This document shows, in pieces, positions 449 to 3,537 of a stretch of DNA of 47,400 nt. Every line of letters starts with the position of its first letter. The stretch's first letter is position 1. The DNA is from Hassallia byssoidea VB512170 (GTDB lineage: Bacteria; Cyanobacteriota; Cyanobacteriia; Cyanobacteriales; Nostocaceae): assembly GCF_000817785.2 (NCBI RefSeq), contig NZ_JTCM02000050.1:1-47400 (forward strand). The letters are read 5' to 3'. A program made the position numbers and the translations under genes. The notes under the pieces were generated by a model. That model made no database searches. It had not been told where the DNA came from and saw only the letters and a list, made by a program, of their open reading frames with translations.

Positions 449-507
449 TCAGTTTTTTCTCTTTGCGCGATCGCGCGGTCAGGGTAGTAAGATTTAAACC
501 ACTACCC

Positions 508-1815
508 ATGAATAAACCCGACTACAATGCCCTACTCCGAAGTTTCTGGAGTAGTCCAGCATCGCTCGAAAGCATCAAAGACAACACAAAAAACGAAGTT
601 GAAGGGGACATTGGTGATTTTTTAGCAGAGAGTATTCTTTGGCAAGAAATCGTCCCTTCTCAGATCCCCGACCAACGACCGATGCCAGATAACTTACCTC
701 TTGAATTAATAAAAGCACTTCAGAAAAATGGCATTAGTCAACTTTATTCACATCAGTTAGAAGCGCTATCGGCACTCCGAAAAGGCAGGGATGTCATTAT
801 TACAACAACAACCGCCTCTGGCAAAACGTTAAGTGCATACCCGGCAAGGAAAGGAAGGCTGCTTGAATAAGGGTTACAGAGCCATCAGCTTTTACTCGTT
901 AAAGGCTTTAGCACTCGATCAGTTTAACAAAATCTCAACCTTACTCGCTTGCATCCCAGAAGCTACTCGTCCCAAACTGGCAATGCTGACTGGTGATATC
1001 AAAACAGAAGAAAGAGAAAGGCTTCTGGCAGCAAACCCCCATATTATCGGGGCGACCCCAGAACTAATCCACTACCAGCTAAGAGCTAGCTGGAGATCTA
1101 AGTATTGGAGCGAGTTCTTCAAGAAACTAAGGTATATTCTTGTGGACCAGAGCCACCTTTACAGTAGTGTCATGGGTGCATCAATGGCTTTGCTTCTGCG
1201 AAGGATCAAACTTGCGGTGGACCATCATGGAAGTACGAGCGCTAAACTCCAATTTATCTTTCTCTTTGCCATTGTAGGAAATCCAGTCCAGTTGGCTCAA
1301 CGGCTATCCGGTCGCACTCGCGATCCAAATCGGTTAGTCCTGATTGATACTCATTGGAGCAGCTGCGATCGTATAGCGGCTCTTGGTTCTTAAGCCCAGC
1401 ACTAATGCTAATCCCGATGCTGCCAAGATTATTCTATACCTACTAAAACAAGGAATGTCCGGCATTACTTTCTGCAACAGCAGACAAGCCGTAAAAAGCT
1501 TGTTAGGATTGGTCAAAAGCGAAGCTATACGCCAACGTTGCCCAGGCTATGAAGACAAGGTGGGCGACACCTGACCAAGACTTGGGTGGACAGCCTTGTG
1601 AACTCGTTCCGCAACTACCCACGACTATTTCAAATGTTCGCGCTTCGCGTCTGGTGAAGGAGAAGGCTGTCCACCCAAGGCTCCGGGGTTATTGCATGGC
1701 AATCTTCTACGGGTCTCTCACAGGCGATCGCCGTGCTGAGATAATTGAACAGCTGCAATCCGGTCAAATCCGCTTTATCATCAGCACGGAAGCATTGGAG
1801 GCAGGGCGACGTCTG
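508..1815 (+). pseudogene. DEAD/DEAH-box helicase, frame-broken
   Basis: A superfamily 2 helicase spread over at least three frames. Frame one (ATG at 508) carries a Q-motif-like region and Walker A-like TTTASGKTLSAY. The continuation (from about 857) has SLKALALDQ, LTGDI, GATPELIH and a degraded Walker B, VDQSH, where VDEAH is expected. A third piece near 1400-1540 has GITFCNSRQAVKSL. The piece from about 1690 has FYGSLTGDRRAEIIEQL and FIISTEALEAG, typical of helicase motifs IV-V. Motif VI is missing; the frame runs into repeat-like DNA at about 1815. The layout resembles YprA/MrfA-type helicases with an N-terminal ASGK motif. Frame breaks, the lost DEAH and repeat insertions mark it as non-functional. 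Confidence 0.75.
1581..1679. repeat. Palindrome-ended small element inside helicase remnant
   Basis: A 17-bp perfect inverted repeat, CTTGGGTGGACAGCCTT at 1581-1597 and its complement at 1663-1679, bounds a 99-bp element that interrupts the helicase reading frame. The interior (GTGAACTCGTTCC..CAAC..CCCACGAC) aligns with the reverse complement of the element at 47322-47398. The preceding bases, CTGACCAAGACTT at 1571-1583, recur at about 1813-1825 before a second related sequence (GGGGACAGGCTTC), so a degenerate copy probably follows at 1813-1905. It looks like a MITE or REP-type repeat. Confidence 0.55.
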
Positions 1816-2177
1816 ACCAAGACTTATGGGGACAGGCTTCAAGGGTTCGCTCTCGACGCACGCGTTGCGCGTTCATCACGAAGAAGTGTCGTGGGCGAGT
1901 CTTCCCTAAAAAATGGGGGTGGTTCTGACTTATGCTGAATTGCTAGAGGCAAGTGGGTTTTTACCCGCATTTTGTGTTAAACGATAGCAGAAAAATAATG
2001 AGATCGGGGAAACACTTGGCGCGATCGTTGGATGCCTTTGAAAGCTGCCGGTCCTCCGGTGAGGTTGGTGCGACCTTTGTATATCAGCCAAAGCCGCGAA
2101 GTTACTATTTAAGGAGTTAGTCAAAACGATTTGCCTAGAGTGAAAATAGGCAGTTTACAAACTGTCACTTAAAATAG

Positions 2178-2206
2178 TTGCATTTTTATTTAACTAATGA
2201 TATGGT
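2178..2206 (+). promoter_or_regulatory. Promoter of tandem sRNA copy 1
   Basis: TTGCAT at 2178-2183, a 17-bp spacer and TATGGT at 2201-2206. It sits at the same distance from the RNA body as the promoters of copies 2 and 3 although its sequence differs, which argues that promoter function is what is conserved. Confidence 0.5.
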
Positions 2207-2212
2207 TTATTT

Positions 2213-2284
2213 GTGTGTGAGGAGCAAGTTAAAAATTAAAAAACGCCTGGGGTGGAAACACGGTAACACTCCCAGGCGTTTTTT
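2213..2284 (+). ncRNA. Candidate tandem small RNA, copy 1
   Basis: Predicted RNA of about 72 nt beginning just downstream of the -10 box and ending in a hairpin with arms AACGCCTGGG and CCCAGGCGTT followed by a run of T. The 5' part is unpaired and contains GTGTGAGGAG (2215-2224), the exact complement of CUCCUCACAC, the invariant loop of the cyanobacterial small RNA Yfr1 as I recall it. No open reading frame of note fits within it. Coordinates of the transcript ends are inferred from promoter spacing and hairpin position. Confidence 0.5.
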
Positions 2285-2349
2285 CATGGCTATAAAAGAG
2301 CGAGTAAAAAGAAAATCATGTCCAGTCGGACAACTGTCACTCCATATAC

Positions 2350-2378
2350 TTGCCATTTGATAAAAGCAGTGATATTCT
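2350..2378 (+). promoter_or_regulatory. Promoter of tandem sRNA copy 2
   Basis: TTGCCA at 2350-2355, 17-bp spacer, TATTCT at 2373-2378: a near-consensus sigma-70-type promoter immediately before the second repeat unit. Confidence 0.5.
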
Positions 2379-2384
2379 TCAGTT

Positions 2385-2455
2385 GTGTGTGAGGAGCAAG
2401 TTAAAAGTAAAAAACGCCTGGGGTGGAAACACGGTAACACTCCCAGGCGTTTTTT
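2385..2455 (+). ncRNA. Candidate tandem small RNA, copy 2
   Basis: Second unit, nearly identical to copy 1 across the predicted transcript: GTGTGAGGAG near the 5' end, an A-rich linker, then the AACGCCTGGG/CCCAGGCGTT hairpin with T-run. The unit-to-unit period is 171-172 bp, including about 100 bp of conserved DNA between the hairpin and the next promoter. Confidence 0.5.
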
Positions 2456-2520
2456 CATGGCTATAAAAGAGCGAGTAAAAAGAAAATTGTGTTCAGTCGG
2501 ACAACTGTCACTCCATATAC

Positions 2521-2549
2521 TTGCCATTTGATAAAAGCAGTGATATTCT
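2521..2549 (+). promoter_or_regulatory. Promoter of tandem sRNA copy 3
   Basis: TTGCCA at 2521-2526, 17-bp spacer, TATTCT at 2544-2549, identical to the copy 2 promoter. A decayed fourth copy (TTGCGG at about 2690) follows copy 3 but has no RNA body after it. Confidence 0.5.
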
Positions 2550-2555
2550 TCAGTT

Positions 2556-2626
2556 GTGTGTGAGGAGCAAGTTAAAAGTAAAAAACGCTTGGGGTGGAAA
2601 CACGGTAACACTCCCAGGCGTTTTTT
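2556..2626 (+). ncRNA. Candidate tandem small RNA, copy 3
   Basis: Third unit. The hairpin has one change, AACGCTTGGG instead of AACGCCTGGG, which replaces a C-G pair with a U-G wobble and so keeps the stem. The 5' GTGTGAGGAG is unchanged. Conserved structure despite substitution supports an RNA-level function, though one change is thin evidence. Confidence 0.5.
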
Positions 2627-2983
2627 CATGGCTATAAAAGAGCGAGCAAAAAGAAAATTGTGTCCAGTTGTTTAACTGTCACTTCACATACTTGCGGTTT
2701 GATAAGTAAGTCGGCGTGGAAAAACCAAACTATGTAAAGATAAATAAATACGGGTAATGTATCTACCGAGGTGACTAAAAATATGGGCGCTCGTCTAAGG
2801 GTATTCCTGGCTAATGAGCAAAACAAAACCCCTGCAACAACCCACGACAAATTAGGACACATTGTTTTGTAGATCCGCAACCACCGACGAATATTTTTGA
2901 TGAAGCCTGTCCATATTTGTCTAGGGAAGGACTCGCCCCACACTCGCTATGAGGGTTTCAATCCAATGATGCATTAGTAATAA

Positions 2984-3008: not shown

Positions 3009-3165
3009 CACCAAAATAAACATCTACCATGAACAATACAACTTTACGTAAGTTAGAACCAGCGGGGATTCTACATTTTTACCTGCATTCTCAATCACAT
3101 AAGGTATAGTAACAATGTATACGCAACTATCCCTACTCGACCTTCTCCCCCTCTCCCCTACGCTA

Positions 3166-3537
3166 AAACTCGGTATATTCCGATGCTTAAAGGCAGGGGT
3201 GAATCCAGAATTTCCTGAACAAGGAACGCCGCAAGGTCGAGTGGTAAGTCCGCTTTTAGCTAACATCGCACTCAATGGAATTGAGGAAATCCATAACTCG
3301 GTAAGATATGCCGACGACATGGTATTTATCCTCAAGCCAGAAGATGATGCCAACATAATACTAGCCAAAATCAGCCAATTCCTAGCAGACAGGGGAATGA
3401 ATATCAGCCAGAAGAAGACCAAGCTAACCGATACGACTTCGGGCTTTGATTTCCTTGGCTGGCACTTTAAGGTGCAGAGCAACGGAAAATTTAGATGTGT
3501 CCCCTACAAGCTGGACGCGGTTGCAAAATCAATATAG
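3166..3537 (+). pseudogene. Group II intron reverse transcriptase/maturase fragment
   Basis: The fragment contains the RT core: LKAGVNPEFPEQGTPQG, SPLLANIALNG, the catalytic YADD box in SVRYADDMVFIL, KKTKLT and FDFLGWHF. These are RT domains 4-7 of a group II intron-encoded protein (usual length 400-600 aa). The N-terminal finger region and everything after the thumb start, including the maturase X and HNH regions, are missing; the frame ends at 3537 where transposase-like sequence begins. No intron domain V/VI structure was recognised nearby. A non-functional remnant. Confidence 0.85.

Follow-up and report, generated by a model that had tools for sequence, protein, structure and literature searches.

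The window analysed here, a 47,400-nt stretch of the Hassallia byssoidea VB512170 genome (contig NZ_JTCM02000050.1), carries a tandem array of three Yfr2 small-RNA genes. We consider it likely that these RNAs titrate Yfr1 and so release Yfr1-repressed mRNAs, with the dose raised by the number of copies. Under this explanation, each copy would have its own promoter and terminator, its leader (GUGUGAGGAG) would pair with the invariant Yfr1 loop, the mRNAs repressed by the titrated Yfr1 would be released, and multiple copies would supply a higher dose of Yfr2. Some DNA-binding protein would control the array through a conserved inverted repeat upstream of the units. The identity of the units as Yfr2 is nearly certain; most of the doubt in the explanation lies in the titration role. 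The initial annotation had read the units as a possible sponge for Yfr1, an interpretation that our analysis supports; the idea is not new, because the units are Yfr2 itself and the sponge role is the published model of Yfr2.

Three direct repeats occupy window 2150-2640 with start-to-start distances of 172 and 171 nt, in keeping with the three tandem units of 171-172 bp first described. Against the Rfam covariance models, all three matched RF01701 (Cyano-1 RNA) with 53.3-54.6 bits, the cut-off being 41.

2211-2287, plus strand: Yfr2 (Cyano-1 RNA) copy 1; RF01701, 54.2 bits, cut-off 41
2383-2458, plus strand: Yfr2 (Cyano-1 RNA) copy 2; RF01701, 54.6 bits
2554-2629, plus strand: Yfr2 (Cyano-1 RNA) copy 3; RF01701, 53.3 bits

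Since all three exceed the Rfam cut-off for Cyano-1, these matches are beyond chance; the Cyano-1 motif characterises Yfr2 RNAs (accessible text of PMC8400943, which cites Gierga 2009). The matches are 76-77 nt long, close to the RNA of 72 nt predicted initially. NsiR1 likewise arises from a tandem array, upstream of hetF (accessible text of PMC3610870), but the units score as Cyano-1 above the cut-off and none of six scanned neighbouring frames is hetF-like, which leaves hardly any probability that the array is NsiR1 or another tandem small-RNA array of that sort.

Promoter-like boxes separated by 17-nt spacers, as claimed at the outset, can be read before all three copies.

2178-2206, plus strand: promoter-like boxes of copy 1, TTGCAT (2178-2183) and TATGGT (2201-2206), 17-nt spacer; from the sequence, absent from the consensus scan
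2350-2378, plus strand: promoter-like boxes of copy 2, TTGCCA (2350-2355) and TATTCT (2373-2378), 17-nt spacer; from the sequence and the consensus scan
2521-2549, plus strand: promoter-like boxes of copy 3, TTGCCA (2521-2526) and TATTCT (2544-2549), 17-nt spacer; from the sequence and the consensus scan

The consensus promoter scan found 3 sites where 0.9 were expected: it reported copies 2 and 3, missed copy 1, and placed its third site, unrelated to the units, at 2147. Each unit is predicted to form a hairpin with a 12-nt loop that runs into T6, which bears out the terminator-like hairpin proposed originally. The leader, described there as unpaired, forms in the predicted fold just one weak stem, of 4 bp, around the Yfr1-complementary motif; nine of the ten motif bases inside it are unpaired. 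A terminator scan reported none of the three hairpins because their 12-nt loops exceed its loop limit of 8. The C-to-T change in the hairpin of copy 3 still pairs, as G-U, at -23.9 versus -26.6 kcal/mol, as had been noted. Below the loop, three predicted pairs are followed by a one-nucleotide bulge; a 12-nt loop and a bulge at position -4 are hallmarks of Yfr2, whose two highly conserved stretches are the 5' region and the central loop (accessible parts of PMC2662882). The array units also have the short unpaired 5' region conserved in the family (TGTGAGGA type).

The leaders of all three units contain the same 10-nt motif, GTGTGAGGAG.

2215-2224, plus strand: Yfr1-complementary leader motif GTGTGAGGAG, copy 1; exact match
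2387-2396, plus strand: Yfr1-complementary leader motif GTGTGAGGAG, copy 2; exact match
2558-2567, plus strand: Yfr1-complementary leader motif GTGTGAGGAG, copy 3; exact match

Complementarity of this motif to the Yfr1 loop had been proposed at the outset, and it holds for the partner encoded by the strain itself, so that neither of two conditions set to refute the idea, lack of a Yfr1 gene and a non-matching loop, applies: Yfr1 (RF01116) has a single match in the H. byssoidea VB512170 genome (61.8 bits), its loop reads TTCACTCCTCACACCACAC (also given as UUCACUCCUCACACCACAC), and the array leader is the exact 10-nt complement of CTCCTCACAC / CUCCUCACAC within that loop. The 10-mer alone is weak evidence: it occurs 16 times in the 7.5-Mb genome, counting both strands, and the reversed pattern occurs 6 times; Yfr1 (1) and Yfr2 leaders (4) account for five of the 16. 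The argument stands on family membership and conservation. Co-folding with Yfr1 gained -20.4 kcal/mol for copies 1-3 and -22.0 kcal/mol for a fourth, isolated copy elsewhere in the genome. The pairing of copy 2, the sole pair for which shuffles were made, was matched by 1 of 1000 letter-shuffled Yfr1 sequences and by 0 of 1000 letter-shuffled Yfr2 sequences.

Others have shown that Yfr2 binds Yfr1 in relatives and that a reporter in E. coli is freed from repression. According to the accessible parts of PMC6778093, Yfr2 binds Yfr1 and relieves its repression: Yfr1 was pulled down by Yfr2, and, with Prochlorococcus RNAs, a Yfr1-repressed GFP reporter was restored in E. coli. The same source reports that Yfr1 protects Yfr2 from RNase E. 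For Nostoc PCC 7120, the accessible text of PMC6974561 presents a gel shift of Yfr2 with Yfr1, describes Yfr2 as coming from "four repeats" and as rising under nitrogen deprivation, and proposes sequestration of Yfr1 in vivo, which its authors mark as hypothetical.

Both partners are widely conserved. Cyano-1 matches occur in all 59 genomes searched, this strain included (50 over the cut-off), and Yfr1 in 58 (56 over the cut-off), the one without it being a 54% complete genome. Among viruses, five contigs fitted a loose Yfr2 pattern and none of them scored as Cyano-1. In relatives, the leader GTGTGAGGAG is exact in 102 of the 107 Yfr2 matches checked among the matches listed; the five with a changed leader, again among the matches listed, are in genomes G001, G046, G047, and G057, and two of these leaders (GTGTGGGGAG) would still pair with the Yfr1 loop through G-U. 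Outside this strain, 45 Yfr1 loci from 44 genomes were read, and 44 of the loci carry the loop CACTCCTCACACC; the one that does not is a weak second match in a genome where the other match carries it. No compensatory change between leader and Yfr1 loop was found: the four genomes with a changed leader have the usual loop, and both sides are so nearly invariant that there is little to test. Co-evolution is therefore not demonstrated, and the four genomes that pair a changed leader with an unchanged loop lower our confidence in the main explanation. Tandem arrangement is itself conserved. Yfr2 copies less than 400 nt apart were found in at least 26 fetched genomes, at least 24 of them from the same family, and with H. 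byssoidea included tandem copies occur in at least 25 of 35 same-family genomes. Congeners G001 and G002 have four Yfr2 units each.

The leader could also be conserved for the sake of mRNA targets or of cleavage by RNase E; the accessible parts of PMC6778093 report both for Yfr2. Yfr2 might here act mainly on mRNA targets of its own through leader and hairpin loop, with Yfr1 pairing as a side effect, a possibility that we judge unlikely while giving it some weight. A targetome of Yfr2 itself has been reported (PMC6778093, accessible parts), Yfr1 pairing explains, of the two conserved parts, the 5' region but not the central loop (PMC2662882, accessible parts), and the absence of compensatory changes with Yfr1 among relatives points the same way; but the leader is an exact 10-nt complement of an invariant Yfr1 loop in the same genome, binding of the two RNAs is published, and the argument from loop conservation is circular because our list of copies was selected on the loop. 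We continue to favour titration of Yfr1 as the role of the array.

The stretch around the array contains disrupted genes, and these, like the decay of one unit, weigh against our main explanation. Similarity to DEAD-box helicases at window 463-1393 extends over two overlapping frames (20.8 bits, below the cut-off, and 39.8 bits) and apparently marks a broken gene, and a reverse transcriptase fragment at window 3115-3537 (PF00078, profile positions 112-205) may be the decayed remains of the protein of a group II intron. Within and beside the broken genes, at 1562-1597, 1804-1839, and 2901-2938, is a short repeat (TGACCAAGACTT..GGACAG) in two direct copies and one inverted copy, 74-83% alike. 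Following copy 3 is the remnant of a lost fourth unit.

2665-2702, plus strand: decayed promoter of the lost fourth unit, with the inverted repeat (2665-2682) and TACTTGCGGTTTGATA kept, without a -10 box and with no RNA after it; from the sequence and a pattern match, aligns with the fourth-unit promoter of G001

In an alignment with G001 and G002, the remnant breaks off ahead of the -10 box; the G002 stretch used lies past its last unit, and there is no match there. An isolated Yfr2-like copy (G000:C147:12400-12469, locus L004) scores 38.7 bits, below the cut-off, with its leader intact. It belongs to a second subtype with loop GACGAAACACGG and stem CACCGAGAC, its sequence 3' of the leader differs from that of the array copies, and copies of this type in relatives are without the upstream repeat. 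The array could be a relic in a decaying stretch while this isolated copy does the work, as the broken helicase and reverse transcriptase frames on its flanks and the decayed fourth unit would allow. We regard this as improbable: leader, hairpin, T-run, and promoter boxes are intact in copies 1-3, and tandem copies are retained in at least 25 of the 35 same-family genomes.

Upstream of array-type Yfr2 genes, we found a repeat of the form GTGnCAGTT-N4-AANTGTCAC.

2151-2168, no strand assigned: inverted-repeat site of copy 1 (CAGTTTACAAACTGTCAC); pattern match, half-site conserved in relatives
2323-2340, no strand assigned: inverted-repeat site of copy 2 (CAGTCGGACAACTGTCAC), left arm imperfect; from the sequence, half-site 8/9
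2494-2511, no strand assigned: inverted-repeat site of copy 3, left arm imperfect; from the sequence, half-site 8/9

We examined 115 distinct copies of Yfr2, recognised by TGAGGA with GAAACA after it. The half-site AAGTGTCAC is present upstream at 8 or more of its 9 letters in 61 of them, and in 60 of these 61 it ends 46-49 nt before TGAGGA; nine of the 12 copies with a 7/9 match have it 47-49 nt away. As a control, random stretches were drawn from these loci, in part overlapping the arrays; 47 of the 1920 score 8 or 9. In 61 distinct sites, picked for their right half, the bases of the left arm are C98 A96 G62 T90 T83 (percent), which makes the element an inverted repeat, imperfect in many copies including copies 2 and 3. 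The strict repeat matches six times in this genome: twice at the array, once in the intergenic sequence at a second RNA-like gene, and three times in apparent coding frames, which we take as chance. It is commoner than its reversed control in 48 of 59 genomes and equal or rarer in 11, and one genome has 11 sites; the regulon may be wider than the array and the second gene, and some of the surplus sites may have nothing to do with it.

The canonical NtcA-activated promoter has GTA-N8-TAC at about -41, and copies 2 and 3 have GTC-N8-TAC. NtcA is an unlikely binder of the repeat, and GTC-N8-TAC is not the shared element, since the second gene, which has the same repeat, is without the TAC half in its aligned members. 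Yfr2 levels respond to nitrogen and light (PMC6778093; PMC6974561), and the accessible parts of these papers name no binding site for the response. Our literature search, which covered article listings and text passages, found no published description of the inverted repeat or of the second gene, for which a transcript entry may nevertheless exist. A conserved site at a fixed distance before both Yfr2 and a second RNA-like gene offers a direct handle on the regulator that sets Yfr2 levels.

This second gene lies at G000:C206:4082-4372 (locus L149, 1480-1770), with the same inverted repeat upstream; the repeat adjoins a leuS-like frame (the name was read from the translation), and the distance from GTCAC to GATAT is 30 nt, as in the array. 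DNA similarity shows the gene to be conserved in 31 of the 35 genomes of the family, a count that leaves out G036, where only the 3' edge matches; a covariance model adds G017 and brings the total to 32. In an alignment of 30 members, the 5' tail (TGCAAGGAGTG) is invariant, ATACCA and TGGTAT pair in a long-range stem, and a terminator hairpin is shared; of 27 predicted pairs, 8 are changed on both sides. The predicted RNA of this strain has a better fold than 199 of 200 shuffled versions, and its best hits in Rfam reach 17-18 bits against cut-offs of 100. A small protein was rejected as the product because, by eye, the open frames of some members are broken by length changes of 1-2 nt in others.

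The inverted repeat precedes the second gene at 30 of the 31 family loci. An exact pattern, which demands the tail and part of the stem and is uninformative on diverged members, found at least 115 second-gene loci in named public genomes; the 80 matches listed are mostly from Nostoc, Anabaena, Calothrix, Scytonema, Fischerella, Richelia, and similar genera, with some uncultured cyanobacteria and one Plectonema. Among the matches listed, a somewhat looser pattern places the repeat 45-48 nt before GCAAGGAG in 112 of the 114 loci with enough upstream sequence. Against the Yfr1 loop, the second-gene tail can form 8 plus 3 nt of pairing with UCACUCCU, and the first 60 nt of the RNA gained -9.4 kcal/mol with Yfr1, a value equalled by 7 of 300 and 1 of 300 shuffles, so that the energy test comes out weak.

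In other families, the second-gene model matches repeated elements, often by its middle part alone. Eleven of 13 fetched regions are repeated elements that start with TAATACCAATTCAC or similar and end in an inverted copy, without the tail, and the other two are the second gene itself. The element looks like a MITE, possibly of the Nezha family. A pattern for its left end occurs at 24 places in 19 of 59 genomes (none for the reversed control), and by coordinates 16 of these places coincide with the second gene and 8, all of them fetched, lie elsewhere. The MITE-end pattern has no match in the H. byssoidea genome, the strain's own second-gene copy included, and the MITE reading therefore depends on relatives. 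The upstream regions of three second-gene members score 52, 61, and 59 against Yfr2 promoters, versus shuffle maxima of 39, 45, and 35. For linker and terminator, five members score 37, 27, 34, 31, and 34 against 60 of the 115 Yfr2 copies, versus shuffle maxima of 29, 27, 30, 30, and 30, a suggestive result only, because such terminators are similar in composition.

On these grounds we put forward a tentative proposal, which may well prove wrong. The Yfr2 array would belong to a regulon marked by GTGnCAGTT-N4-AANTGTCAC, 45-49 nt before the 5' tail, and the second member would be a Yfr2 paralogue that a MITE split between leader and terminator hairpin in the family ancestor. The inverted ends of the MITE would form the main stem of the RNA, the tail GUGCAAGGAGUGA would face the remaining half of that loop in Yfr1 (UCACUCCU), the split gene would have been kept in 32 of 35 family genomes and in Richelia symbionts, and the two RNAs would be co-regulated Yfr1 ligands of different specificity. 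If the MITE reading is true, a conserved small RNA has come to be built around a mobile element. We treat the second gene, and the repeat found upstream of both it and Yfr2, as leads.

Compared with the Yfr2 family and its Cyano-1 motif, the array shares the leader TGTGAGGAG, the 12-nt loop with GGAAACA, the bulge four positions under the loop, the terminator hairpin, the promoter boxes, and the presence of several copies per genome (hallmarks from the accessible parts of PMC2662882); we see no essential difference. Tandem clustering is common in same-family genomes, and PMC6778093, in its accessible parts, describes yfr2 as multicopy at unconserved loci. A close counterpart is Nostoc sp. PCC 7120, for which Yfr2 repeats, induction under nitrogen deprivation, a gel shift with Yfr1, and a sequestration model are described (PMC6974561, accessible text); against the four Yfr2 repeats of that strain, which we compare by description only, the array has three intact units and a decayed one, with a separate diverged copy elsewhere. 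Yfr1 (RF01116), the partner RNA, keeps its invariant loop and lies outside the array, and Yfr10 in Prochlorococcus has the Yfr1 motif in common (PMC6778093, accessible parts). The array is thus ordinary in kind: a known RNA family, with a known partner and a known model.
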